A stretch of DNA of 36,437 nt, taken from positions 1 through 36,437 of IMG/VR virus record IMGVR_UViG_3300042382_000422. One strand, given 5' to 3'. A model generated the notes under the pieces. That model had not been told where the DNA came from. It saw only the letters and a program-made list of their open reading frames with translations, and made no database searches. Source of the DNA: a virus. Each line of letters opens with the position of its first letter. Positions within the stretch are counted from its first letter, which is position 1. Below, piece by piece: positions 20,768 to 30,987 of this stretch. The position numbers and the translations under genes are program-made.

Positions 20768-21220
20768 ATGAAGAGTAATGTTATTTTGATTTTGGTTTTA
20801 TCTTTCAACATAGCACTCGGCATTTTGGCTGTTCGATACATAAATGAATGTTCAAAAAATATGCCTGAGGTTTGCACTGTTGCTAGTGTTGTAGCTACTG
20901 CTGATTGGAATGATCAATTTAATGCTCCCGGTTGGACAGTATTTAAAACTACAGAGGGTGAAACAGTATTAAAAATTCACGGAAGTTCGGATGGTTATGT
21001 ATGGTTTTATCCTAACAACAGTAGTTGTCCTTTAACTTTAGTGCTTAAAGAGTTAAAAGTAAAAATCACAAAAATTATCTGTTGTCATCCAGCAGTAGTT
21101 AAAGAACGAAGTAATGTTGATGTATCTTTCTTTCAAGAGACTCATCGTTCTTTTGTTTATGCGACTCTTAATATTGTTGAGGGAGAGAATGTTCGGGTTT
21201 ATAACAAAAACCCTAATTAG
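20768..21220 (+). CDS. Small membrane-anchored protein, unknown
   Basis: The ATG at 20768 follows AAAGGAG with a 6-nt gap and is preferred over upstream in-frame ATGs from 20675. The 150-residue product has one N-terminal hydrophobic segment (residues 4-24, VILILVLSFNIALGILAVRY), then a probable extracytoplasmic domain with five Cys (CSKN, CTVAS, SSCP, ICCH) and mostly beta strands. Residues such as AYW/WFYP and KTTEGETVLKIHGSSDGYVWFYP suggest a small beta barrel. The family was not recognised. The following gene cluster also encodes envelope proteins. Confidence 0.7.
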   Translation: MKSNVILILVLSFNIALGILAVRYINECSKNMPEVCTVASVVATADWNDQFNAPGWTVFKTTEGETVLKIHGSSDGYVWFYPNNSSCPLTLVLKELKVKITKIICCHPAVVKERSNVDVSFFQETHRSFVYATLNIVEGENVRVYNKNPN

Positions 21221-21353
21221 CAGAGGACACTCCGAAAAGGGTGTAATGCACTACTTAATCTGATCTAGGTTAGGTAACGGTTCCAAGTCCGAGCATATAT
21301 GGCTATCTCACTTTGAGGTAGCTGTTTTCGTTTCTAGATCAAGGAGTTTAGTT
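21221..21353 (+). ncRNA. Structured leader RNA 1
   Basis: The element abuts the preceding stop codon (TAGCAGAGGACAC). Parts: closing stem GGAC (21225-21228)/GTCC (21287-21290); hairpin ACACTC-CGAAAA-GGGTGT (21227-21244, sharing two bases with the closing stem); conserved GGGTGTAATGCACTA; hairpin ACTTAATC-TGATCTA-GGTTAGGT (21253-21275); conserved TAACGGTTCCAAGTCCG (21275-21291). A terminator-like hairpin follows at 21302-21322. The loop TGATCTA plus the next G (21261-21268) is perfectly complementary to CTAGATCA (21334-21341), which touches the ribosome binding site AAGGAG. It shares its layout and long identical words with leader 2. Confidence 0.65.
21302..21333 (+). terminator. Terminator-like hairpin in leader 1
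   Basis: GCTATCTCA and TGAGGTAGC form a 9-bp stem (one G-U) with a CTT loop, followed by TGTTTTCGTTT. It lies upstream of the gene, so it would act as an attenuator rather than as an end-of-operon terminator. Confidence 0.6.
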
Positions 21354-21497
21354 ATGGATAATAATATCGTTGGTCAAATTGCATACTTCACAGTTTGTTT
21401 TGCAGTTTTGGTGGTGCTGTTTACTCCTGTTAATGTCTGGTTGTTGGAAAAAATGTTTGCGGTATTAGACAAAGTTTTTATGACTCCAAAAAACTAG
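21354..21497 (+). CDS. 47-residue membrane protein
   Basis: ATG at 21354 follows AAGGAG (21341-21346) with a 7-nt gap. The product MDNNIVGQIAYFTVCFAVLV... has a hydrophobic stretch over about residues 8-31 and a short charged tail (EKMFAVLDKVFMTPKN). A single membrane span is expected. The function is unknown. It lies between two copies of the same leader RNA, and leader 2 starts right at its stop codon. Confidence 0.65.
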   Translation: MDNNIVGQIAYFTVCFAVLVVLFTPVNVWLLEKMFAVLDKVFMTPKN

Positions 21498-21622
21498 CAG
21501 AGGACACCTTCGGGTGTAATGCACTATGAAGGCTAGACTTCATAACGGTTCCAAGTCCGGCATATACAGTCATGCTCATGTTGAGTGTGGCTGTTTTTGT
21601 TTCTAGATTAAGGAGTTTTACG
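21498..21622 (+). ncRNA. Structured leader RNA 2 (homologue of leader 1)
   Basis: It starts at the preceding stop codon with the same TAGCAGAGGACAC. Parts: GGAC (21502-21505)/GTCC (21555-21558); hairpin ACACC-TTCG-GGTGT (21504-21517) with a UUCG tetraloop; GGGTGTAATGCACTA; hairpin ATGAAG-GCTAGA-CTTCAT (21526-21543); TAACGGTTCCAAGTCCG (21543-21559). Compared with leader 1, both hairpin stems differ in sequence but keep pairing. Loop CTAGA (21533-21537) can pair with TCTAG (21602-21606), 4 nt before AAGGAG. Confidence 0.65.
21567..21602 (+). terminator. Terminator-like hairpin in leader 2
   Basis: CAGTCATGCTCA and TGAGTGTGGCTG form a 12-bp stem with several G-U pairs and a TGT loop, followed by TTTTTGTTT. 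It is a good intrinsic terminator in form, placed before the gene. Confidence 0.65.
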
Positions 21623-22237
21623 ATGGCTAATGTTAACTTTTGTGTTGTATGTGGTTCTGAAGTTCTTACCGGTGTTGATGCTGGTGAGGCTTTTGCTATT
21701 GGGTATTGCGAGTGTATCGCAGTGCCAGAAGTTGATGTTTTTGTTTTGGAGGATACTGATATGCCTTGTTGTGTTCCAGATAACAAAACATTCATTTTTT
21801 GTAGCGATTGCGGACATGAGGGAAGTAATCCTTGCAACTGTAAGGGAGTTACAATAGAAGACGAAGAATTCATCTACGTCTATGAAGAAGCAGAGGTTCT
21901 TGCTGCTTCTGTTGGTTGTCAATCATGTAATCAAGCTGCTTGTAAAGGGCCTAATGAACGTGGATACTGTCTTGAGTATTACGACTACGAAAACGAAAAA
22001 GCACTTCGGAAGTTTCAAGGATTAGAGGAGGATGACCCAGAACCACAGGTAGAAAAAGTTCGCTCCTTTTATGAAGAAGCGTTTTTAATGTTGGCAATCT
22101 TGACTAGTTTCTTTCGTCTTCTGTATGCCATCTCAACAGGGAAAGTTAATGATCCTTCCTTGGTCATTGCGTGGTATGCGTTTTGCGGTTACTTGATCTT
22201 GTCTTATACCGCAGTCATTCTGTGGTTTGTACTTTAA
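21623..22237 (+). CDS. Cys-rich protein with C-terminal membrane segments
   Basis: ATG at 21623 follows AAGGAG (21610-21615); in-frame starts from 21572 lie inside the leader hairpin and are rejected. The 204-residue protein has a Cys-rich first half with CVVCGSE, YCECI, MPCC, FCSDCGHEG, NPCNCKG and CQSCNQAACKG, likely several zinc sites. An acidic linker follows, then two hydrophobic segments (about 157-172 and 183-204, ending LSYTAVILWFVL). So it looks like a membrane-anchored zinc protein with its metal domain probably on the cytoplasmic side. The function is unknown. Confidence 0.68.
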   Translation: MANVNFCVVCGSEVLTGVDAGEAFAIGYCECIAVPEVDVFVLEDTDMPCCVPDNKTFIFCSDCGHEGSNPCNCKGVTIEDEEFIYVYEEAEVLAASVGCQSCNQAACKGPNERGYCLEYYDYENEKALRKFQGLEEDDPEPQVEKVRSFYEEAFLMLAILTSFFRLLYAISTGKVNDPSLVIAWYAFCGYLILSYTAVILWFVL

Positions 22238-22380
22238 ATAATTTTGACTTAGCTGATAGGCAGCTTGGGAGTTCGACGCTCTCACTAAGTCTTTGATCTG
22301 AACTATCACGGATCTTGCAGTCATCTACGCTCTTGTAGGTGGCTGTTTTAATTGATAGCTACTCTAAAGGAGTATTGGTT
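22238..22380 (+). ncRNA. Structured leader RNA 3, with tRNA-like acceptor/T-arm part
   Basis: GACTTAG (22246-22252) pairs with CTAAGTC (22285-22291), 7 bp. Inside is a small D-arm-like hairpin (GCT-GATAGGC-AGC) and GGGAG-TTCGACG-CTCTC, a 5-bp stem with a 7-nt loop beginning TTCGA as in a tRNA T-arm. There is no anticodon arm and no CCA, so it is not a tRNA gene. Next comes hairpin GATCTG-AACTATCA-CGGATC (22295-22314), then a terminator-like hairpin. Loop CTATCA (22303-22308) is complementary to TGATAG both at 22254-22259 (in the D-like loop) and at 22353-22358 (just before AAAGGAG), so two exclusive pairings are possible. Confidence 0.6.
22318..22353 (+). terminator. Terminator-like hairpin in leader 3
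   Basis: CAGTCATCTAC and GTAGGTGGCTG form an 11-bp stem with loop GCTCTT, followed by TTTTAATT. The outer pairs (CAGTCAT/GTGGCTG) match those of the leader 2 hairpin. Confidence 0.6.
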
Positions 22381-22647
22381 ATGGCTAATTGTATTTGTGG
22401 GTGTAAACGACCAGTTGAGCAACGGTGCGGTACTGAAGAGTATCTTGATGACGTTGGAGCTTGTAACATTTGCAACGCTCCATGTTTCGGTTACATCTGC
22501 ACTCGTTGCGAAACTCTAGAGATAGAGTTGTGTAAAAAACAGGAAGAGGAAATGTTGGAAGTTATGAGAAATGATTTAATTGATCCAATCTTAGATTTTC
22601 TTGATCCTGACAATATTGAAAATCGTCGAATACAAAATAACGATTAA
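22381..22647 (+). CDS. Small Cys-rich zinc-type protein
   Basis: ATG at 22381 follows AAAGGAG (22366-22372). The 88-residue protein starts MANCICGCKRPVEQRCG and continues with GACNICNAPCFGYICTRCE, i.e. two CxxC-like knuckles spaced like a zinc ribbon. An acidic helical tail follows (KKQEEEMLEVMRNDLIDPILDFLDPD). Its start MAN-C resembles that of the preceding Cys-rich gene, so the two may be related. Binding to host proteins or nucleic acid is possible, but nothing specific is shown. Confidence 0.7.
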   Translation: MANCICGCKRPVEQRCGTEEYLDDVGACNICNAPCFGYICTRCETLEIELCKKQEEEMLEVMRNDLIDPILDFLDPDNIENRRIQNND

Positions 22648-22672
22648 TAATTAGTTTAGTTGATTTTTCTAA

Positions 22673-22740
22673 AGCTCATGCGTGTTGCATGGGCTTGTTC
22701 TGTTTATAGCCTCTGCGTGTTGCAGGGGTTTGTTCTTTTT
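22673..22740 (+). terminator. Tandem hairpins with identical loops, terminator-like
   Basis: AGCTCATGC-GTGTT-GCATGGGCT (22673-22695) is followed by TGTTCTGTTT. AGCCTCTGC-GTGTT-GCAGGGGTT (22708-22730) is followed by TGTTCTTTTT. Both have 9-bp stems and the same GTGTT loop, while the stem sequences differ in a paired fashion. They stand between the small Cys gene and the 949-residue gene, 7 nt before its ribosome binding site. Confidence 0.65.
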
Positions 22741-22757
22741 ATACATAGGAGTTTGAT

Positions 22758-25607
22758 ATGTCATTATGGAATTACAGATTGCCAGCAATTGTTTGTTATA
22801 AAGATAAGCAGCACATTGCTTACCGATTTACCAAGGGAGGAGTGAAAGTAAAGCTCCTTTCTTGGAAAGAAAAGTTTTCGGAGTCGTTCTTCAAAGCTGT
22901 TGGTACTCCTGATAAGAACAGTACCAATGTGATGAATGAACTTGAGGTTAAGACCTTCAACGGTCACGACTACTTCAAAGTAGAAGGCATTGTATTCTCC
23001 TGTTCGACAGGAGATGTAATGAAAGATAACAACATCATTAAGTTGTTTGATGGTGTTGAACTTACCGAAGGTACAGCTCTTAGAGAAGACCCTGAGAACG
23101 GGTTTTATAAGGGTATGTACAACGCTCATGCTCATAAGCGTCATTTAGAAGACAAACAAGCAGGTATTGTGCCTGCTGTTCCAACTACTACAGCACCAGC
23201 TTCGGTGTCTGTGGAGGTGTTTACTCAAGAACCTATAAAGGAGGTAGATAGAGTGAAGCAACATATTCAGCACTTGCTTGATACAGAACGGATCAAGGAG
23301 TTGAGCAGTAACACAAAGGTAAAGGGAGTCTACGGCAGGGATTATCATATGATCCGTGCTGTATCCAAAGGTAGGGCCTATAGGGTCTTCACAATGGACA
23401 AGGGCAAAGATTGCAAAGAAATCCTTCACGCTATGGAGGGCTTCTTAATAATTGCAGTCAACAAACCCGATACCGTATTATTTGCAGTGTCTGAAGAACC
23501 CACTACGTTCTTAGCGTGGTTCAAGGATTTCGGCTTTGGGATCAAGAAAGGGCCAAAGCTTAGTAAACGGTTATCGCAATTCATTAGACCCTATCTAATG
23601 TTTGCAAGTTTTGGTCCAAAGATTTTTAACATTAAGATCTTAACCAAAGAAAATTGGTCGGGTGATTTCCGCACTGTTGACGGTGCAAATATCATAAGCA
23701 CAAGAGCCTTTCGGTTTTTACTCGCAGTAACCGTAGGTAATCTTATAAAAGCCGGTGATCAAGAAGCTGCTGATCTCATTCAGCAGATGGGCGAAGAAAA
23801 CGTTGTATTCAACGGCAGGCTTTGGTTGCCAGGATATGGATTCATCAAGGGTCAGTTCTTTGTCTCTCCTTTCATCAAGGAAGATTTTGTTATCCACGAG
23901 GGTAACATCAAGGATGAGATCCGAGTAAATTGTCCATACGCATACCTTGGTATGGACCCACAGCCCGGTAAACTTTCACTCGAGTCAAACGGTCAGGGGT
24001 GTAACAACTTCCCACCACCGTTTGGGATTGGTCACGGTGTAAAAGTTGCTGATAGCTTGTTGTACAAGAATGTTGTCAAAGCTTGTGATAAAGCTTTAGA
24101 ACGTCTTAAGACTGGCAAGCTTGAGACATCTCTCAAAGACCTCTTGATCTTGTTGCAAAACAACTTGATTGAGGAGAGTGAGACTACCAAGGGAAGACTT
24201 AACCTTGCTCACTGGAGTGAGTTTGATTCTCCTAAATCTAACCCTGCATTGTTTGGCAGGGAAGCTAAAGATGGTCTACGTCGCATGGTTGACTTAGATG
24301 AGCTTAACATCAATGTCAAAGTTGATGGTGGCACATATTGCCAAACAGTTTCAGAGTCAGTAATGGCTTTGATTGGTGTGCCTACTATCATTGAGAAGGG
24401 TACTGTCCAATACAATTCTCGGTGGATGGTTTACGTCATGAATGACGAGGACTACATTGCTAACCTCCCCAACCATGGTGGTCCTGACATGGACGATAAG
24501 TTCTGTCAGATACTAATGCGACAAGAAGGTTTTGATGGCATTCGATGCTTTATGTATCGGAATCCATCCGACAGGGGTGAGTACAATGTACTTACCTTCA
24601 AGGGTGAGCCACCTGTTAAAATCAGCGAAGTCATCTTACCAGCTAAGATGCCTCTTAAGCTAACCGAGCGGGATTGGAAGTTGCCAGAAGTTCCATCGGC
24701 TACAAGGCCGAAAGTAGTTTACGTTGATGCAGATTATGCCATCGACGAGTTTTACAAAGAGCTCGATCTAGAGGGTGCAAACCCTGGATTGGGTATCAAC
24801 GTAGGCAGCTTGTGGAACGCTTCTAACCCTGACGTGTCGCTTAGAAATAAGCACATGCCTAGCAATGAAGCTCAGGTTGACTCTACCGTTCAGCTTAAAG
24901 ACGGTGTTGATATCGTCTTTATCAAAGGCTGCATGGTGAAAACTATGAAGGAGGTTCTTCAATCTACTTGGATGGTCGATCACCGCAGGTTGCGCAACGT
25001 CAAGAAGATGTTCAAGGATGACGCTCACTACAACTCTTGGGTTGCAAAACTCAAGAAGCAAGGCCGTCTTCCCGAAGCTGGCAACTGGTGGACTCGTCTA
25101 GTTACTGAGTGTGACAAGGTGGTTAAAACCACTATTGAGAAGATTGACCAGACTATCGAGTCAGTCAGACTTCGTAACAATTACAACCTTATCAGCCCTA
25201 CACCTCTTAATGCTTCACAGCTTGAGATGGTTGCTAGGTATGTCTCCAAGATGATGCGTGTTCAAGGTGCGTGTGGTCGCACACCAGAGACTCGCAACAC
25301 CGGACTTAGAAATGCTAAGGACAGCATCACCCAGAAAGGCCACGAATGGATCGCCAAGGGTATGAAAGAACACTTCAACACCCTGTGTGATAAATTCGCA
25401 GCATGGGGACTGGTTGAGCAAGACGGGGTCAAACTCAGCAGAACTCCTGTTCGTGTTGCTATTGCAATAGCGCACGTAGTTAACAACCACTCCTTCGTAG
25501 GTAGAGAAAACCCAATCGTCACGGATTGGCTAATGGATCGTAAGGAATACTTCAACACCTACTTGAGTATCCTTAAGACCTACAAGAAGGTTACTGCTAC
25601 TAAGTAG
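22758..25607 (+). CDS. Unknown 949-residue protein, possible enzyme
   Basis: ATG at 22758 follows TAGGAG. Mixed alpha/beta composition, higher GC than the neighbours. Residues 1-130 look like a separate small domain, followed by a Pro/Thr/Ala linker (VPAVPTTTAPAS) near 140. Candidate functional motifs are FRTVDGANIIS (about 306), VDGGTYCQTVSES (about 525), NLPNHGGPDMDDKF (about 570) and YRNPSDRGEY (about 600). The acidic GGPDMDDKF recalls the metal-binding DxDGD loop of double-psi beta-barrel RNA polymerases, and R-N-P...GEY recalls their R-x-P element, but the order is unusual and the glycine is missing. The final 250 residues are helical and basic. A replication or transcription enzyme is possible but unproven. 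Confidence 0.75.
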   Translation: MSLWNYRLPAIVCYKDKQHIAYRFTKGGVKVKLLSWKEKFSESFFKAVGTPDKNSTNVMNELEVKTFNGHDYFKVEGIVFSCSTGDVMKDNNIIKLFDGVELTEGTALREDPENGFYKGMYNAHAHKRHLEDKQAGIVPAVPTTTAPASVSVEVFTQEPIKEVDRVKQHIQHLLDTERIKELSSNTKVKGVYGRDYHMIRAVSKGRAYRVFTMDKGKDCKEILHAMEGFLIIAVNKPDTVLFAVSEEPTTFLAWFKDFGFGIKKGPKLSKRLSQFIRPYLMFASFGPKIFNIKILTKENWSGDFRTVDGANIISTRAFRFLLAVTVGNLIKAGDQEAADLIQQMGEENVVFNGRLWLPGYGFIKGQFFVSPFIKEDFVIHEGNIKDEIRVNCPYAYLGMDPQPGKLSLESNGQGCNNFPPPFGIGHGVKVADSLLYKNVVKACDKALERLKTGKLETSLKDLLILLQNNLIEESETTKGRLNLAHWSEFDSPKSNPALFGREAKDGLRRMVDLDELNINVKVDGGTYCQTVSESVMALIGVPTIIEKGTVQYNSRWMVYVMNDEDYIANLPNHGGPDMDDKFCQILMRQEGFDGIRCFMYRNPSDRGEYNVLTFKGEPPVKISEVILPAKMPLKLTERDWKLPEVPSATRPKVVYVDADYAIDEFYKELDLEGANPGLGINVGSLWNASNPDVSLRNKHMPSNEAQVDSTVQLKDGVDIVFIKGCMVKTMKEVLQSTWMVDHRRLRNVKKMFKDDAHYNSWVAKLKKQGRLPEAGNWWTRLVTECDKVVKTTIEKIDQTIESVRLRNNYNLISPTPLNASQLEMVARYVSKMMRVQGACGRTPETRNTGLRNAKDSITQKGHEWIAKGMKEHFNTLCDKFAAWGLVEQDGVKLSRTPVRVAIAIAHVVNNHSFVGRENPIVTDWLMDRKEYFNTYLSILKTYKKVTATK

Positions 25608-25817
25608 CAGATAGTCTCTCTCACTTCTAATCTCCTCGCAAGGCTTCGCGGGATAGTCTTTGGCTCGGAACAAGGCCTTCGCTCGGAAGCCTCGCTCAGT
25701 CCAACCAAGCAAAACACACGGACAGTAGTAGTCTCTCTAGCATGGTAGCGGTAGTGGTGTGGGGAATAGAGGCATATGGCTTCTATTCAATTATCTACTT
25801 ATCAAGGAGTATCTATC
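25608..25817 (+). promoter_or_regulatory. Leader with motif copy 1 and 10-bp hairpin
   Basis: No supported gene. The first part holds GC-rich imperfect hairpins (AGGCCTTC-GCTC-GGAAGCCT near 25663-25687). At 25748-25764 is GCGGTAGTGGTGTGGGG, directly followed by GAATAGAGGC-ATATG-GCTTCTATTC (25764-25788), a 10-bp hairpin with one G-U pair. The ribosome binding site AAGGAG follows at 25804-25809, about 39 nt after the motif. The same arrangement recurs in three other operon leaders. Confidence 0.5.
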
Positions 25818-26117
25818 GTGCTAGAAAAATTCGCTTTCATTTCCCGTCACATTCCAACCGAAAGCCAAGTTCGCTTGGCCTTGGAAAAAGGAATTGAGCT
25901 TGTTCATGTTGGTGATCGGGACGGGTTCACTATTAACCCGAAAGAATTTATCGCTGCCGATTTTAGAGGAGTCGTGGTCGTTCACGCTCAAGCAGCCCTG
26001 ACTTGCTTTAAGTACGGATTCTCTGTCGGCGTGTTTAACAATGTTAACAGGGCTCCTCTTGGTGAGAAGCCAGTGTTCGAGACTACTGAGTTATTCATAA
26101 CAGAAAGGAATATCTAA
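25818..26117 (+). CDS. Unknown 99-residue protein
   Basis: The GTG at 25818 has AAGGAG about 8 nt upstream and is preferred over the in-frame ATG at 25776, which sits in a hairpin loop without a good binding site. The product starts (M)LEKFAFISRHIPTESQVRLAL. It is a compact alpha/beta protein with IELVHVGDRDGFTI, FRGVVVVHAQAALTCFKYGFSVGVFNN and R-APLGEKPVFET. The regular strand-helix pattern resembles a small Rossmann-like or ligand-binding fold. No family was recognised. It overlaps the next gene (TAATG). Confidence 0.65.
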   Translation: MLEKFAFISRHIPTESQVRLALEKGIELVHVGDRDGFTINPKEFIAADFRGVVVVHAQAALTCFKYGFSVGVFNNVNRAPLGEKPVFETTELFITERNI

Positions 26118-26353
26118 TGTTCAATTTGTACAAGCCCGTAAGGGCAGGCTCGCATTACGAGTTAGACCTTGATCTTAACTTCATCTGCTTGCATCCATTC
26201 GAGATGCAAGCACGTGAAGAGGCCGCACGGTCTAATGATGATGAATATCACGGAGGGTACTTCACTCTCCGTGACTTAGTAAAATTCCTCGATCATCACA
26301 ACATGAAACTAGAGGATCTCCGTCACTGGAGTCCACCAAAGAAAGGGGCATAA
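26117..26353 (+). CDS. Unknown 78-residue acidic protein
   Basis: The start overlaps the previous stop codon (TAATG at 26115-26119), so translation is coupled. The protein has no membrane segment. Its second half (YHGGYFTLRDLVKFLDHHNMKLEDLRHWSPPKKG) looks like a short helical domain. No function can be proposed. It is the middle member of a three-gene operon. Confidence 0.6.
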   Translation: MFNLYKPVRAGSHYELDLDLNFICLHPFEMQAREEAARSNDDEYHGGYFTLRDLVKFLDHHNMKLEDLRHWSPPKKGA

Positions 26354-26354
26354 T

Positions 26355-26594
26355 ATGGGCATCTACATAGCCCGTTTCCACACAGATTTACTAGTAGAAG
26401 ACTATCCCACTCCTTACGGAGTGGGTGAATACAACGAAGCAGTAGCCTATGTGGAAGACTACTGCAATCGCATAAAAGGAATCGAGCCCCGCTTCGATCT
26501 CGTTCTCTATACCGGAGATGGCAGAGAATATGAACGAGCCAGTATTGAATACTGGAAAAAATACCTTCCTAATCCTCTTCACCCTCAAGGGTGA
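26355..26594 (+). CDS. Unknown 79-residue protein
   Basis: The ATG at 26355 follows the preceding stop by 1 bp, with AAGGGG just upstream. The product MGIYIARFHTDLLVEDYPTP is mixed alpha/beta, with EAVAYVEDYCNRIKG in the centre. It is the last gene of the operon; its last codons and stop form part of the terminator stem. Function unknown. Confidence 0.62.
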   Translation: MGIYIARFHTDLLVEDYPTPYGVGEYNEAVAYVEDYCNRIKGIEPRFDLVLYTGDGREYERASIEYWKKYLPNPLHPQG

Positions 26595-26608
26595 TGGGGA
26601 TTTTTTTT
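26574..26608 (+). terminator. Strong intrinsic terminator
   Basis: CCTCTTCACCC and GGGTGATGGGG pair at 10 of 11 positions with a TCAA loop and are followed by A and eight T (26601-26608). It overlaps the end of the gene finishing at 26594. Confidence 0.85.
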
Positions 26609-26682
26609 AAAAACCCTGTCGCACTTCGTGCCCACTTTATATTATCCGCTCCCTGTCGCTCGCTCCCTCAGGAGGTAAGCCA

Positions 26683-26763
26683 ATGCTGTTAGTGGTACTT
26701 CAAGTAACCGTGCCGGTAGTGGTGTGGGGATACTACCACGCTGTTGTGCGTAAGATCCTATAA
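26683..26763 (+). CDS. Candidate 26-residue hydrophobic peptide
   Basis: ATG at 26683 follows AGGAGGT (26670-26676) with ideal spacing. The peptide MLLVVLQVTVPVVVWGYYHA ends in VVRKIL. It would span a membrane once. Its DNA includes motif copy 2 (26713-26729), so the similarity to other motif copies could be DNA-level rather than protein-level. It could be a leader peptide or chance. Confidence 0.4.
   Translation: MLLVVLQVTVPVVVWGYYHAVVRKIL
26713..26758 (+). promoter_or_regulatory. Motif copy 2 with following hairpin
   Basis: CCGGTAGTGGTGTGGGG (26713-26729) is identical to copy 1 except at its first base. GGAT (26728-26731) can pair with ATCC (26755-26758), enclosing ACGC-TGTTGT-GCGT. AAGGAG starts at 26776, about 46 nt after the motif. 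Confidence 0.5.
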
Positions 26764-26788
26764 CTCATCCTATCTAAGGAGTATTCGC

Positions 26789-27334
26789 ATGTTGACTAAC
26801 GTACAAGGACTTATTAACGAACTAACTACCTATCAGATTAATGAAGGGTACAAGCTCGGGGGCAAGGGCCCTGCTATGAAAAAGCTTGCTGGAACTATCA
26901 AGGAGATCTTTCCAAGCTTATCTGATGCAGACAAAGGAATCTTTCTTGCAACAGTAGGAAGAGGCAGGTTCGCAATCAACAAAGACATATGGGATATGTT
27001 TTGCGAAGCTGTAGGCATCGAAGCCCCTGCACCAACACCTACACCAGCTCCTGCTACACTAGCACCGCAGACAAACAAGGTTGCGGGCGAGATCTTGGAG
27101 CATGTCAAGGGGCACTTGGTAGCCATCAACTTGCTAGACAAGGCTATGGAAGCACAGTTGAATACCATGGATCGTCAAGCTGAAAAACTTGACTCTCACC
27201 AAGCTATCCTACAAAGCTTAGTAGGCATGGTTAGCGACCTACAAAAGCAAGTTGCTGAACTCAAGAAGCCTGCTTCACCCCGAAGAGGAGCAAGAGCTAA
27301 AGTCGAAGACAGTATCGAGCTTGCTTCCGTGTAA
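26789..27334 (+). CDS. Unknown protein with Pro-rich linker and coiled coil
   Basis: ATG at 26789 follows AAGGAG (26776-26781). The in-frame ATG equivalents from 26744 lie in the leader hairpin. The 181-residue product has an N-terminal helical domain (1-80: LTNVQGLINELTTYQINEGY, IFPSLSDADKGIFLATVGRGRFAI), a Pro/Ala/Thr linker (EAPAPTPTPAPATLAPQ), then a coiled coil (about 100-165, LDKAMEAQLNTMDRQAEKLDSHQAILQSL) and a basic patch (RRGARAK). Such a shape suits an oligomeric adaptor. No family was recognised. It stands alone between a leader and a strong terminator. Confidence 0.7.
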   Translation: MLTNVQGLINELTTYQINEGYKLGGKGPAMKKLAGTIKEIFPSLSDADKGIFLATVGRGRFAINKDIWDMFCEAVGIEAPAPTPTPAPATLAPQTNKVAGEILEHVKGHLVAINLLDKAMEAQLNTMDRQAEKLDSHQAILQSLVGMVSDLQKQVAELKKPASPRRGARAKVEDSIELASV

Positions 27335-27340
27335 ACCAAA

Positions 27341-27374
27341 AGCCTCTACCCGAAAGGGTAGGGGTTTCTTTTTT
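27341..27374 (+). terminator. Strong intrinsic terminator with GAAA loop
   Basis: AGCCTCTACCC and GGGTAGGGGTT form an 11-bp stem (with G-U pairs) closed by GAAA, followed by TCTTTTTT. It lies 7 nt after the stop codon at 27334. Confidence 0.87.
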
Positions 27375-27651
27375 AGAAAACCCTGTCCTCGCTACGCTCG
27401 CTCTGGATTCGTACGCAGTCGTTCCTCCTGCGGGCAATTGGCAAACGCTAGTCGCTGTTACCCCCTGTCTTGGTGTGGGGTTTCCAACCTTTGGCAAACC
27501 ACCACGGACTTCTAGCGGAAAAAGAAGACAGTATAAAAGGATCTCAATGTCCTTAATGTAACAAGATGGTGGGGAAAAGGTTATGGGGAACTAACTTCAT
27601 TTCCTAAATTACCTACTTTATCACATCTTTTACGCTGTTTTTCCGTGTGTG
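27375..27651. other. Gene-poor spacer with motif copy 3
   Basis: No supported gene. The first bases (AAAACCCTGTC) repeat the sequence that follows the terminator at 26608. CCTGTCTTGGTGTGGGG at 27464-27480 is motif copy 3, followed by hairpin GGTTT-CCAA-CCT-TTGG-C-AAACC (27479-27500). No ribosome binding site or frame is close behind, so this copy may be a remnant or may serve an unseen RNA. The rest is AT-rich with short G-rich words. Confidence 0.45.
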
Positions 27652-27720
27652 GCGGTTTCGGTGTGGGGCTTTACGTCGATGCGTACTGCCCTTTTTCGTT
27701 TCCAGTTCTTGTAAAGGAGG
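27652..27720 (+). promoter_or_regulatory. Motif copy 4, terminator-like hairpin and strong ribosome binding site
   Basis: GCGGTTTCGGTGTGGGG (27652-27668) is followed by hairpin GGGC-TT-TACG-TCGATG-CGTA-CT-GCCC (27666-27691) and TTTTT. AAAGGAGG (27713-27720) lies 45 nt after the motif and 5 nt before the ATG at 27726. Confidence 0.55.
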
Positions 27721-27725
27721 TAGTT

Positions 27726-27914
27726 ATGCCACGTAGAAAGTGCCCCGTCAGAGATGTCAGGGTGCAGAGCACAGTGTTGATTGATGTCAGCACCAGTGAG
27801 CGATTCAAGGTACTCACAAGTGATGAGTACGCATTATTTCTGGAAGGACTTGTTGTCCAATCAGAAGGTCAGAATCAAATGAAAACTACAAAGGAGATTT
27901 GCAATGTTATTTAG
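27726..27914 (+). CDS. Unknown 62-residue basic protein
   Basis: The ATG at 27726 has the strongest ribosome binding site of the region (AAAGGAGG). The product MPRRKCPVRDVRVQSTVLID begins very basic, then predicted strands and a helix (SERFKVLTSDEYALFLEGLVVQ). A small nucleic-acid-binding protein is possible. It overlaps the next gene by 11 bp, and the next gene's AAGGAG lies inside its 3' end. Confidence 0.65.
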   Translation: MPRRKCPVRDVRVQSTVLIDVSTSERFKVLTSDEYALFLEGLVVQSEGQNQMKTTKEICNVI

Positions 27915-28410
27915 TTCCAACAACAGCGTTAACTTTCGTCAAAAACTGGTAGTCCTCGTAGGCTTCCAAGTATGTCTTATACTAATCGCCAATGTGTTTT
28001 GTGCAAACGAAACAGCGGAGGCAATGGTATATGAACTGCAAATGGATGAAATGGCAGACTACTACGAAGGAAAAGAACGAGTCAAAAATAGACTCGCAGA
28101 ACTTGATCTACAACGATGCTGCTCAGGCAGAGTTGCAGAAGAAAAAGAGTGCAAAGTAGAACACTGCCACTGCATGGGTATGCCAAATGCTGAGTGCCAA
28201 GAGATCTGGTGTGACAACCCAGAGATCATAACTGATGAGATATGGTTCATGGATCAAATGGACATCTCACGGATTAATATTGATCGTAAATACAAGGAAG
28301 GAAAATACCTTCTCTTTGTAGATAAGATCGGAAGGGTATTCAGATTTGATTTGTCCTTAGAATCAGAAGAGTATAAACCCCAAAAAATAAAGGAGTTCAT
28401 ACGTGATTAG
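27904..28410 (+). CDS. Envelope protein with N-terminal signal/anchor and Cys-rich middle
   Basis: The 168-residue protein has a hydrophobic N-terminal segment (about 15-33, LVVLVGFQVCLILIANVFC) after a short basic start, followed by ANETAEA, which could be a signal peptidase site. The mature part is acidic with a Cys-rich stretch (LQRCCSGRV, KECKVEHCHCMGMPNAECQEIWC), likely disulphide-linked if exported. A C-terminal strand region (KYLLFVDKIGRVFRFDLS) follows. Translation is coupled to the preceding gene. Function unknown; it starts a run of envelope-targeted genes. Confidence 0.65.
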   Translation: MLFSSNNSVNFRQKLVVLVGFQVCLILIANVFCANETAEAMVYELQMDEMADYYEGKERVKNRLAELDLQRCCSGRVAEEKECKVEHCHCMGMPNAECQEIWCDNPEIITDEIWFMDQMDISRINIDRKYKEGKYLLFVDKIGRVFRFDLSLESEEYKPQKIKEFIRD

Positions 28411-28513
28411 TACAACACAAGAAGCGTTCCAATTCTTTGCAATCATACTGTCAGGTTTCATACTCTTTGGAACCTGCATACTATTAGGATATAAATTACT
28501 ATGCCTAATCTAA
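28403..28513 (+). CDS. 36-residue single-span membrane peptide (GTG start)
   Basis: GTG at 28403 follows AAAGGAG (28389-28395) and overlaps the end of the previous gene. The peptide (M)ISTTQEAFQFFAIILSGFIL is followed by FGTCILLGYKLLCLI: a short polar head and one long hydrophobic helix. It overlaps the lipoprotein gene by 13 bp. It was too short to be noticed by length alone but has a good binding site and coupled context. Confidence 0.55.
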   Translation: MISTTQEAFQFFAIILSGFILFGTCILLGYKLLCLI

Positions 28514-28839
28514 AAGCAAAGTTATTTCTACTACTCACCGGAGGCATACTATTTGTCTCCGGTTGCAGTAAACCCGATGAAAACCTAACTGATTCTTGCT
28601 TATACATAACACAAAGAGTTCCAAGCACCAAAGAAGTTTGGGATCAGTTAGAAGAATCTGCAAAGATGGAAAGAAAAATCCGTCGTGCAAACGTAAAAGT
28701 AAAACAACTCTGGCCTATGCACCCCACAGATATATCCGAATCAAACATACCAACGTTTCTTAGAGATCCGTACAAATGGTATCTATGTAGAGATAACGAG
28801 TGGGAAGTCTATGCCATATCAACCAACAAAGGAAACTAA
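28501..28839 (+). CDS. Predicted lipoprotein
   Basis: The 112-residue product has a lipoprotein signal: basic start (MPNLKAK), hydrophobic core (LFLLLTGGILF) and lipobox FVSGC with the lipidated Cys at residue 22. The mature part (SKPDENLTDSCLYITQRVPS...) is charged and helical, ending with YKWYLCRDNEWEVYAISTN. Phage lipoproteins often serve superinfection exclusion or, as Rz1-type spanins, lysis. The mature part is not especially Pro-rich, so a spanin is less likely. Confidence 0.7.
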   Translation: MPNLKAKLFLLLTGGILFVSGCSKPDENLTDSCLYITQRVPSTKEVWDQLEESAKMERKIRRANVKVKQLWPMHPTDISESNIPTFLRDPYKWYLCRDNEWEVYAISTNKGN

Positions 28840-28841
28840 CT

Positions 28842-29012
28842 ATGTATAAAGTTCTAAGCTTGCTTATGATTCCAATCACGTTCTTTACCTTCTTCGGCAT
28901 AGCAGACTTCTACGTAGCTAACAACTACACAGAAGGTTCTATGATGGCAGCGTTACTATCTACATTCACTCTAAACTTATGCACACTAGGGTACACCCTT
29001 AGTAGATGCTAA
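28842..29012 (+). CDS. 56-residue protein with two membrane segments
   Basis: ATG at 28842 follows GGAAAC 2 bp after the previous stop. The product MYKVLSLLMIPITFFTFFGI has a first span over about 3-21 and a second over about 34-52 (MMAALLSTFTLNLCTLGYTLS) with a short loop between. The layout would fit a small holin-like or membrane-exclusion protein, but no endolysin lies nearby, so function is open. Confidence 0.6.
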   Translation: MYKVLSLLMIPITFFTFFGIADFYVANNYTEGSMMAALLSTFTLNLCTLGYTLSRC

Positions 29013-29024
29013 TAAGGAGGCTTC

Positions 29025-29300
29025 ATGAGTTTTACCTTAAAAGCAGTGCTAATAACCGCAGCAGTGTCTCTATATTTTTATAACTTCCCTGTCAAAAAAT
29101 ATACGGAAGACCCTGTTAGATTAATGTTGATACCTTACAACGTAATGCCAGATCCTAAACATAGGACGGATTCAATCTTAATGGCAGACGAAACAGGTAA
29201 GAAGTATCTACTGAGTTTTAGAGGAATCATAATGGACTGCGAACATTACCTCACACCTCTACGAAACTTAACAAATAAATTAGACCCCTACTACGAATAA
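29025..29300 (+). CDS. Small membrane-anchored protein
   Basis: AAGGAGG lies just before the ATG at 29025. The 91-residue product has one N-terminal hydrophobic segment (about 4-20, TLKAVLITAAVSLYFYNF), then a soluble domain with strands (VRLMLIPYNVMPD, DSILMADETGKKYLLSFRGIIMDC). It is the last gene of the envelope cluster and is followed by a terminator. No family recognised. Confidence 0.65.
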   Translation: MSFTLKAVLITAAVSLYFYNFPVKKYTEDPVRLMLIPYNVMPDPKHRTDSILMADETGKKYLLSFRGIIMDCEHYLTPLRNLTNKLDPYYE

Positions 29301-29319
29301 GACTCCTATCAACCATTAA

Positions 29320-29357
29320 CCCTGCATCACCCTTGAGGTGGTGTGGGGTTTCTTTTT
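29320..29357 (+). terminator. Strong intrinsic terminator after the envelope cluster
   Basis: CCCTGCATCACC and GGTGGTGTGGGG form a 12-bp stem (with G-U pairs) and CTTGA loop, followed by TTTCTTTTT. Its 3' arm resembles the recurring GGTGTGGGG motif. Confidence 0.8.
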
Positions 29358-29383
29358 GCCCACGGTTTTCCATTTTCGTTTTT

Positions 29384-29459
29384 CCCCTTTTGGTTTGGGG
29401 TTTCGTCATGGGTTCCGGTTTTGGTTTGGGGCTTCGTGGACACATGCGTGTTCAAGCCC
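29384..29459 (+). promoter_or_regulatory. Motif copies 5 and 6 with 12-bp hairpin
   Basis: CCCCTTTTGGTTTGGGG (29384-29400) and CCGGTTTTGGTTTGGGG (29415-29431) are near-identical and 31 bp apart. Copy 6 is followed at once by GGGCTT-CGT-GGACAC-ATGC-GTGTTC-AAGCCC (29429-29459), a 12-bp hairpin with a 3-nt bulge. AAAGGAG starts at 29474, about 43 nt after copy 6. Confidence 0.55.
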
Positions 29460-29489
29460 ACACTCTAGCATTGAAAGGAGATTGCAGAC

Positions 29490-29711
29490 ATGAGCGTAAG
29501 GATTCGCATCATCGAAACCGTGCCAACGAAGGCACATAAACGATCACCGCTCTTAGCAAAACTAAGACGCAAGCTGATCAAACTTCAACACCTAAGAGAT
29601 CAAGGAACACCAGATCGAATAGGCGAAGAAGACGTTATACAAACCTTAGAACGTAAACCCAAAGTTGCCCGACAATTTTGGCAACAAGGAGGATACCAAT
29701 GGGCTGGATAG
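29490..29711 (+). CDS. Unknown 73-residue basic helical protein
   Basis: ATG at 29490 follows AAAGGAG. The product MSVRIRIIETVPTKAHKRSP is rich in Arg/Lys (LLAKLRRKLIKLQHLRDQGT), then more acidic (EEDVIQTLE), ending ARQFWQQGGYQWAG. A small nucleic-acid- or protein-binding helical protein is likely. It overlaps the next gene by 13 bp, which carries its own AAGGAGG. Confidence 0.6.
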   Translation: MSVRIRIIETVPTKAHKRSPLLAKLRRKLIKLQHLRDQGTPDRIGEEDVIQTLERKPKVARQFWQQGGYQWAG

Positions 29712-29893
29712 AAATCCTAGCAATCGGACTCATACCCGGAAGCATCAAAGTTTCCCGTGAGTTCGGCAAATTAGACGTGAGCATTACTCCCGCAGTATTT
29801 ATGCTCATCGAATTTGTATGCAAAAAAGCAAAAGAACTTTTGACTTCACCGTCGAAGCCAGAAGAACCCACCGAAGTTAAGACGGTTTCTTAA
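29699..29893 (+). CDS. Unknown 64-residue membrane-associated protein
   Basis: The ATG at 29699 has AAGGAGG 6 nt upstream and is preferred over the in-frame upstream TTG. The product MGWIEILAIGLIPGSIKVSR has two short hydrophobic stretches (3-15 and 27-42) and a charged tail (KKAKELLTSPSKPEEPTEVK). Membrane association is likely. Function unknown. Confidence 0.58.
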   Translation: MGWIEILAIGLIPGSIKVSREFGKLDVSITPAVFMLIEFVCKKAKELLTSPSKPEEPTEVKTVS

Positions 29894-29922
29894 CACAACA
29901 ACAACAACAAAGGATCATAACA

Positions 29923-30348
29923 ATGGATATCAAAGAAGTAATCGTAAAGTCTAGCCTCAAGCAACGAATCACCGCAGCACTTGTAGCAGGTGCTTTAGGT
30001 GGTGGCTATTACTACAACGCTCACGCAACCGTGTCTCCCCAGCAAGCCGTAACAAGCGGAATGCACAAGGAAAACACAGTTAAGATGACCGTACTTTCCG
30101 GCAAAGATTTCATCGATGGTAAGACTAAAGCACCTAAATCTACAGTGCTTAATGACACAGCAGACTACAAAGCTGCAAGTCTTACTATATACATCGATAG
30201 AACTCGCTGCCCTAACTTAAATTACGCTAGCCTTCAAGGCAAAACCATTAGCGTAAAAGGATTTGTACAAGAGTGGAAAGGTAAGGACGGCAAATCCAAA
30301 CCCGAAATCAAAGTAACTGATCCTTCCCAAATCAGCGTAGTGAATTAA
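29923..30348 (+). CDS. Secreted OB-fold-like protein
   Basis: The 141-residue protein has a basic start, a hydrophobic stretch (about 17-28, ITAALVAGALGG) and a candidate signal peptidase site (YNAHA-TVS). The C-terminal part reads as an OB-fold: LTIYIDRTRC, LQGKTISVKGFVQEWKGKDGKSKPEIKVTDPSQISVV. The strand GKTISVKGFV followed by a lysine-rich loop and IKVTDPSQI is characteristic of small OB domains of the tRNA-anti-like kind. Exported OB proteins bind diverse ligands, so DNA binding should not be assumed. The binding site AAAGGATC is weak. Confidence 0.62.
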   Translation: MDIKEVIVKSSLKQRITAALVAGALGGGYYYNAHATVSPQQAVTSGMHKENTVKMTVLSGKDFIDGKTKAPKSTVLNDTADYKAASLTIYIDRTRCPNLNYASLQGKTISVKGFVQEWKGKDGKSKPEIKVTDPSQISVVN

Positions 30349-30456
30349 TCCCCACTACGAGCACTGAGGAACGAGAGAAGAAGTGCAAGCTAAACCTTCG
30401 CTTCTTCTCTCACACTGTATGACTAACCCAAACACCAAACATTCTAGGAGATTGAT
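30349..30456 (+). promoter_or_regulatory. Intergenic hairpin
   Basis: GAGAGAAGAAG (30373-30383) and CTTCTTCTCTC (30401-30411) are perfectly complementary over 11 bp with a 17-nt loop. No U tract follows, so it may be an RNA-stability or processing hairpin rather than a terminator. TAGGAG for the next gene is at 30445-30450. Confidence 0.55.
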
Positions 30457-30987
30457 ATGAGCAACTTTGAAGCATTTGTAACCGCAAATAGTGCAGCCCA
30501 AATCCGTGACTCTAAAATCGGAGGAAGGTTTTGGAAAAGGCGAGACAGCTTTACCACTGGTAACACGCTAACACCTTCCAAAACCACACCACCTGAGCTA
30601 GAAGGCAAAACCTTACACATTGCCAAACAAGATGAAGGCTTCACCCTTTACATAGCACACACTGTTGACGCACCCTTTAGTGCAGCAGAAGTATTGTGCC
30701 ACTTAAAGGAAACCGAAATCAAAAACAAAGAAGGCCTTGTATCACCAGTCCTTAAAGGGATTGCAATGATCAACGGACAAAGCTCTGAGATTGTTATCAG
30801 AGCCAATAGCCTTCAGCAGAAACAAGACCAAGTAAACAGGGCAATTGCAGATGGTAGAACCAATGCCATCGTAAGCAACCAACCCGATCTTTACATGTCC
30901 ATTGCGACATACAGCACTAGCAAAACCAAGCCAGTCGTACCAGCAATGAACAGTAATGAAATGCCAGACGAAGACTTACCGTTCTAG
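30457..30987 (+). CDS. Possible ssDNA-binding-like protein with SSB-type C-terminal tip
   Basis: The 176-residue protein ends MPDEDLPF, close to the conserved acidic tip of bacterial SSB proteins (DDDIPF) that binds replication and repair enzymes. The tip follows a Thr/Ser/Pro linker (TSKTKPVVPAMNSN), as in SSB. The first 140 residues contain strands (KTLHIAKQDEGFTLYIAHTVDAPF, GIAMINGQSSEIVIRA) but no clear SSB OB-fold signature. It could be a diverged phage SSB or a protein that mimics the SSB tip. It is a single gene between a hairpin and a strong terminator, in keeping with high expression. Confidence 0.5.
   Translation: MSNFEAFVTANSAAQIRDSKIGGRFWKRRDSFTTGNTLTPSKTTPPELEGKTLHIAKQDEGFTLYIAHTVDAPFSAAEVLCHLKETEIKNKEGLVSPVLKGIAMINGQSSEIVIRANSLQQKQDQVNRAIADGRTNAIVSNQPDLYMSIATYSTSKTKPVVPAMNSNEMPDEDLPF

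Follow-up and report, generated by a model that had tools for sequence, protein, structure and literature searches.

The window analysed in this study (the whole stretch of 36,437 nucleotides, positions 1 to 36,437 of IMG/VR virus record IMGVR_UViG_3300042382_000422) is a tailed-phage contig with an HK97-type capsid and a portal. Three genes follow one another in it, each behind a structured leader (Table 1). The genes behind leaders 2 and 3 encode small, variable Cys-rich (zinc-ribbon-like) proteins, for which neither Pfam nor PHROG gave a match; homologs of the 204-aa protein were found in L004/L071 (66%) and L007/L067 (37%), in each case behind a twister leader too. Since both the leaders and the flanking large proteins of IMGVR_UViG_3300035663_000003 (L035; 94.7 kb, IMG/VR) are 100% identical to those of the window, the window probably represents part of this virus or of a near-identical one. 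A more diverged relative, L019, has the same gene order with large proteins only about 36-37% identical to those of the window, and carries one twister leader and one tRNA-like leader in the syntenic stretch. In L097/L099, relatives of the window portal were identified (65%). A blastn search against named phages with the window region and L019 as queries gave chance matches only.

All three leaders begin with a 5′ element, followed in the same order by a hairpin with a complementary loop, a terminator-like hairpin, a U-rich stretch, the target of the loop and the Shine-Dalgarno (SD) sequence. The folding energies of leaders 1, 2 and 3 lie below those of shuffled sequences (z = -2.0, -3.0 and -3.4, respectively).

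Table 1. Features of the three leaders and their genes in the window, and copies of the tRNA-like element in relatives
Feature	Position	Strand	Basis and remarks
Leader 1, type-P5 twister	21219-21292	+	cmscan RF02684, 28.1 bits, E 0.0029
Leader 1, P3 hairpin	21253-21275	+	sequence, fold; stem 21253-21260/21268-21275; loop and paired strand TGATCTA 21261-21267
Leader 1, terminator-like hairpin and U-rich stretch	21299-21325	+	
Leader 1, target TAGATCA	21335-21341	+	abuts/overlaps SD AAGGAG 21341-21346; ATG 21354; sequence, covariation
47-aa ORF behind leader 1	21354-21497	+	TAG stop overlaps leader 2 twister
Leader 2, type-P5 twister	21496-21560	+	cmscan RF02684, 27.2 bits, E 0.0048
Leader 2, P3 hairpin	21525-21544	+	sequence, fold; loop GCTAGA 21532-21537; paired strand CTAGA 21533-21537
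Leader 2, terminator-like hairpin and U-rich stretch	21566-21594	+	
Leader 2, target TCTAG	21602-21606	+	SD AAGGAG 21610-21615; ATG 21623
204-aa Cys-rich ORF behind leader 2	21623-22237	+	
Leader 3, tRNA-like element (46 nt)	22246-22291	+	covariation count, covariance model R1
Leader 3, hairpin GATCTG/CGGATC	22295-22314	+	sequence, fold, relatives; loop AACTATCA 22301-22308; paired strand CTATCA 22303-22308
Leader 3, terminator-like hairpin	22317-22346	+	
Leader 3, target TGATAG	22353-22358	+	SD AAAGGAG 22366-22372; ATG 22381
88-aa ORF behind leader 3	22381-22647		ATG 22381
tRNA-like copy, L065	7557-7602	-	
tRNA-like copy, L061	872-918		
tRNA-like copy, L064	11972-12018	-	
tRNA-like copy, L097	4597-4644	-	

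Leaders 1 and 2 contain type-P5 twister ribozymes, predicted from their sequence to be self-cleaving. At the gathering threshold Rfam gave no match anywhere in the window; with the E-value mode, the top two hits within the region were both to the type-P5 twister (RF02684), with a clear gap to the rest. Both scores stand under the Rfam gathering score of 37.6 for this family, which is a curation cut-off and not a structural feature. Positions 1-58 of the model were matched over the full length in both leaders, with the permuted, P1-closed topology and the conserved core, and all the core motifs of the twister are present as in RF02684, namely GCAGAG, UAAUGC and CGGUNCCAAGNCCG, together with the P1 hairpin, P2 and the pseudoknots T1 (GGA/UCC) and T2 (A/U). 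The first hairpin of these two leaders is the twister P3. The window leaders differ from the RF02684 twister in a long P3, the loop of which would pair with the SD region of the next gene, and in their placement on a stop codon: in leader 1 the GCAGAGG motif starts at 21220, its first G being also the last base of the TAG stop (21218-21220) that ends the upstream ORF, and in leader 2 it starts at 21497 on the TAG stop of the 47-aa ORF. From the known chemistry of twisters, cleavage is predicted between 21244 (U) and 21245 (A) in leader 1 and between 21517 and 21518 in leader 2.

A pattern scan of IMG/VR for the twister core gave 33 stretches, and in ten related loci scanned 21 matches to RF02684 exceeded the gathering score; the syntenic leader of L065/L019 reached 47.2 bits and that of G007 38.1 bits. 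The T1 pair, in which the base that follows GCAGAGG meets the N of GGUNCC, is kept in 48 of 49 distinct phage sequences and covaries (A/U in 19, G/C in 29), and T2 is Watson-Crick in 43 of the 49 (A/U in 30, G/C in 12, C/G in one). Of 48 distinct twisters, 34 (71%) have the stop codon of an open frame at a distance of 3 nt or less, against 5.1% for random positions in the same DNA, the commonest placement being a UAG that shares its G with GCAGAGG. Judging from this arrangement, the stop-codon twisters look like cutters of mRNA between genes. In the 82.9-kb phage IMGVR_UViG_3300027896_000024 (G012; L070), at least 11 type-P5 twisters were found within about 9 kb (21695-30796), located between successive genes and mostly placed on the stop of the gene before; G014 carries four twisters and G013 three. 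Comparison of L078 (around 6500-6600) with its near relative L020 (around 1420-1560) indicated loss of the twister in L078 behind the same stop codon, where what is left seems to be no more than a remnant similar to the second hairpin.

The preliminary description of this DNA, which had been made from the sequence of the window, stated that leader 3 is built differently from the other two, and this was borne out: 8 nt after the TAA stop, in the place of the twister, leader 3 begins with a tRNA-like element, so that one probable RNA-processing element has been exchanged for a different one. The element (GACTTAG-CTG-AUAGG-CAG-CU-UGGGAG-UUCGACG-CUCUCA-CUAAGUC) is composed of an acceptor stem of 7 bp (GACTTAG/CTAAGTC), a mini D-arm (CTG-ATAGG-CAG) and a T-arm (TGGGAG-TTCGACG-CTCTCA), and its elbow consists of a canonical UUCGA T-loop and the GG-containing D-loop AUAGG. 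The anticodon arm is absent, only 2 nt lying between the D- and T-arms, and ARAGORN found no tRNA at this place in the window; the element is thus tRNA-like and not a tRNA. No Rfam family matched the copies in the window, L097 and L061.

Relatives of the element were identified in L019/L065 and, within unrelated surroundings, in L061/L064, with a weaker one in L097/L099. Among three sequences, 5 of the 16 helical pairs are changed on both sides, a count reached in one of 500 shuffles, while a register control in which the partners were slid by -3 to +1 columns gave no doubly changed pair. Covariance model R1 detected the diverged copy of L097/L099, which was outside the model set, at the corresponding leader (E 0.065 for L097). 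Every copy comes right after a stop codon, and the copies are spread over several phage groups. Other candidates were discarded: the single match of the tRNA-like pattern in a genome contig (L058, a Puniceicoccaceae MAG) lies in an apparently coding region with a different fold and was taken as chance, and the matches in L059, L060, L062 and L063 are either T-arms of real tRNAs or chance.

RNase P has been reviewed to act on tRNA-like phage RNAs (M3 RNA, C4 antisense RNA) and on polycistronic mRNAs (PMC11143913), and because of this activity the leader 3 element would most likely be a substrate or processing site of RNase P. As in these RNAs, a tRNA-like fold is found within a phage or polycistronic transcript; leader 3 differs from them in that a minimal tRNA without anticodon arm stands in the place of a ribozyme. 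The acceptor of 7 bp stacked on the T-arm is compatible with RNase P, and the 3′ CCA is absent. Alternatively the element could itself be catalytic, a self-cleaving ribozyme from a class not described before that stands in for the twister, in accord with its location, in several phage groups, at the twister's spot right behind the stop codon and with conserved positions that reach beyond the helices (AUAGG, UUCGA). These very motifs, however, are what the elbow of a tRNA needs for its D-loop and T-loop, no recognisable catalytic core is present and the sequences are few, and we give this reading hardly any credence. Inspection by eye for the cores of the hammerhead, pistol and HDV ribozymes in leader 3 recognised none of them.

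The complementarities between hairpin loop and SD-upstream bases noted previously for the three leaders were all found in place (Table 1), with 7 bp in leader 1, 5 bp in leader 2, where five of the six loop bases take part, and 6 bp in leader 3. For leader 1 a pairing of 8 bp had been given, of which 7 bp lie within the loop; the eighth pair (21268/21334) takes up a base of the stem. When considered one by one the complementarities are weak to moderate: the probability by chance, after shuffling of the target, is 0.0005, 0.012 and 0.023 for leaders 1, 2 and 3, respectively, and as a control, 12 of about 108 other gene starts with a hairpin in these genomes showed a match of at least 5 bp, and three a match of at least 6 bp.

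The set of distinct pairs was then taken together. The 7-bp pair TGATCTA/TAGATCA of leader 1 recurs in L004 and in L007/L027, the pair in L014/L020 is ACTAGA/TCTAGT (6 bp), and GCCATA/TATGGC (6 bp) is found alike in the twister leader and in the tRNA-like leader of L019; with GCTAGA/TCTAG (5 bp) and CTATCA/TGATAG (6 bp) of window leaders 2 and 3, the number of distinct pairs is five. Their summed match is 30, whereas 100,000 shuffles averaged 15.4 and never exceeded 25; the true assignment of loops to targets is the single best among the 120 permutations. The duplex energies range from -4.8 to -9.0 kcal/mol. In all five pairs the loop contributes its 3′ side to the pairing, which is required for an H-type pseudoknot, with an L1 of 0-2 nt and an L2 of 0-1 nt, and from this geometry formation of a stacked H-type pseudoknot is predicted. 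The twister leader of L020 and the tRNA-like leader 3 of the window have the sequence ACTCTRAAGGAGTATTGGTTATGGCTAATTGTATTT from SD to start in common and diverge right at the target, each with a matching loop of its own. In L019, the twister leader and the tRNA-like leader have both shifted to one new loop/target pair. The leader module seems, from its sequences, to move as a unit.

Loop and target change and yet stay complementary in the related phages, but not everywhere: the twister leader of G007/L030 has a loop of 4 nt and lacks the pairing, and the leader of L097 carries the tRNA-like element and both hairpins, yet has no target before the SD. Because of these similar leaders, the pairing is not universal. 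In the tRNA-like leader of L061/L064 a match of 4 bp between loop and SD-upstream bases (GAAT/ATTC) was considered too short to count. The long-range pseudoknot originally proposed is supported by the joint change of loop and target in diverged syntenic homologs, and the proposal was incomplete in that the twister and tRNA-like elements had been missed. Likewise, the suggestion that the pairing is the shared functional part agrees with its presence beside the SD in both leader classes, subject to the two unpaired relatives.

One could argue that the leaders are simply twisters and a tRNA relic, and that the complementarity is a by-product or chance without any role. What is conserved in leaders 1 and 2 is indeed mostly accounted for by the twister core, single matches of 5-6 bp are common among the control starts, and two related leaders show no match. 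We nevertheless judge this quite unlikely, considering that the match is present in each of the seven leaders that have the complete module, that the combined match was never reached by shuffling, that tRNA-like leaders without twister show it as well, and that the matched strand lies each time at the same side of the loop.

The terminator-like hairpins lying between loop and target are strong, while their U-tracts are interrupted and eroding in relatives. Hairpins of this family, with stems of 9-14 bp, were observed at 21299, 21566, 22317, 22672 and 22708 of the window and in L019, L094 and L097; their apical loops are mostly RYKTT (GTGTT, ACGTT, ATGTT, ACTTT, GCTTT), the stems being more variable than the loops, and with the U-rich sequence and SD that follow they stand ahead of many genes in the phage group. 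A control of read-through by the pairing, which had also been suggested at first, would make the leaders transcription attenuators, with RNA polymerase halted at the hairpin and its passage governed by the loop-target pairing. Each leader has a hairpin with a U-rich tail, and eight terminator-like sites are located in the region against 1.3 expected. The target, however, lies 3′ of the U-tract, so that RNA polymerase would reach it only after the decision on termination; in L019 the U-rich tail is degraded (ATTTCATTT, TTGTGTTT), and no competing antiterminator pairing was seen. Since the target is transcribed too late, attenuation is very unlikely, and this part of the earlier proposal was dropped.

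We consider it rather probable (about 0.6) that the leaders have their 5′ ends processed, by self-cleavage or by RNase P, and that an H-type pseudoknot beside the SD then sets the translation start. Directly after the upstream stop, the RNA-processing element (twister in leaders 1 and 2, tRNA-like element in leader 3) would cut the polycistronic transcript, thereby providing the downstream gene with a structured 5′ end of its own. The hairpin loop of the downstream piece would then pair with the 5-7 bases just 5′ of the SD, forming an H-type pseudoknot whose long connecting loop contains the terminator-like hairpin. Most likely the loop-target pairing would determine how easily translation of the next gene is initiated; it may, in addition, shield the newly made 5′ end. 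From the sequence conservation, the covariation in twister pseudoknots and tRNA-like helices, the coordinated change of loop and target and the position at stop codons, we infer cleavage, the action of RNase P, formation of the pseudoknot in vivo and a role in activation or repression. Because both leader classes have the pairing beside the SD in common, this pairing appears more likely to act on translation start, or on how stable the freed 5′ end is, than on ribozyme chemistry. In the minimum-energy fold of L019 the loop-target duplex runs into the SD and in that of the window the SD stays outside the duplex; owing to this difference the sign of regulation is not readable from the sequence. 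Sequestration of the SD by the target was predicted for leaders 1 and 3, was inconsistent across the relatives and was not adopted.

The pseudoknot might instead serve mainly to protect the 5′ end made by cleavage, as a stabiliser of the mRNA, its closeness to the SD being incidental. It would stand at the predicted new 5′ end, which both processing elements would generate, and together with the hairpin it would hinder nucleases that depend on the 5′ end. A plain hairpin, however, would serve equally, and the target is fixed against the SD and not elsewhere, which leaves this explanation unlikely. Of similarly low probability is a coupling switch in analogy to repY-repZ control of IncI plasmids, in which the ribosome terminating at the upstream stop, which abuts or overlaps the twister, would disrupt the ribozyme and its hairpin, so that upstream translation decides on both the cut and the pseudoknot. 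The twisters within 3 nt of a stop codon would fall inside the footprint of a terminating ribosome, and the tRNA-like copies are without exception placed right after a stop; the same placement may, on the other hand, only reflect minimal intergenic space. An arrangement that joins such gating to the proposed processing and translation control, a modular 'cut and set' with a swappable cutter behind the stop, be it a twister or a minimal tRNA mimic for RNase P, a pseudoknot to the next ribosome-binding site and ribosomes at the stop codon gating the cut, is put forward tentatively, as possible and less probable than the processing and pseudoknot by themselves.

Phage intergenic regions are known to harbour hammerhead ribozymes (PMC3088659), an association with phages is also reported for pistol ribozymes (PMC4604425), and hammerhead and twister ribozymes associate with certain genes, most strongly with those of Mu-like phages, for a biological reason that is still unknown (PMC10085705). 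In the literature searched (the founding twister papers and one review of ribozyme function lie outside it), twisters placed on stop codons were not found; in the same literature, again with the founding twister papers outside it, neither pairing of a twister P3 loop with the SD region nor exchange of a twister for a tRNA-like element was found. The leaders described here suggest a role for phage self-cleaving ribozymes in one group, that is, cutting between genes at the stop codon, and suggest that a peripheral loop of the ribozyme has been put to a second use in controlling the gene that follows. That a ribozyme has been exchanged for a tRNA-like element at one place argues that the cut itself, and not the class of ribozyme, has been kept.

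Among known systems, the nearest analogue known to us would be the activating pseudoknot of repY-repZ in IncI/IncB plasmids, in which, as in the leaders, a hairpin loop pairs just upstream of the downstream SD and near the stop of the upstream ORF; repY-repZ is controlled by an antisense RNA and, unlike the leaders, is not known to contain a ribozyme or tRNA-like element. The leader of T4 gene 32 likewise carries a phage mRNA pseudoknot that controls translation, but this pseudoknot is bound by protein, is autoregulatory and is not known to involve self-cleavage. The HDV-like theta ribozymes of gut phages resemble the twister leaders as small self-cleaving phage ribozymes with a proposed role in RNA processing, but belong to another class and lie beside tRNA genes, in 3′ trailers, and not in mRNA leaders (PMC10879173).
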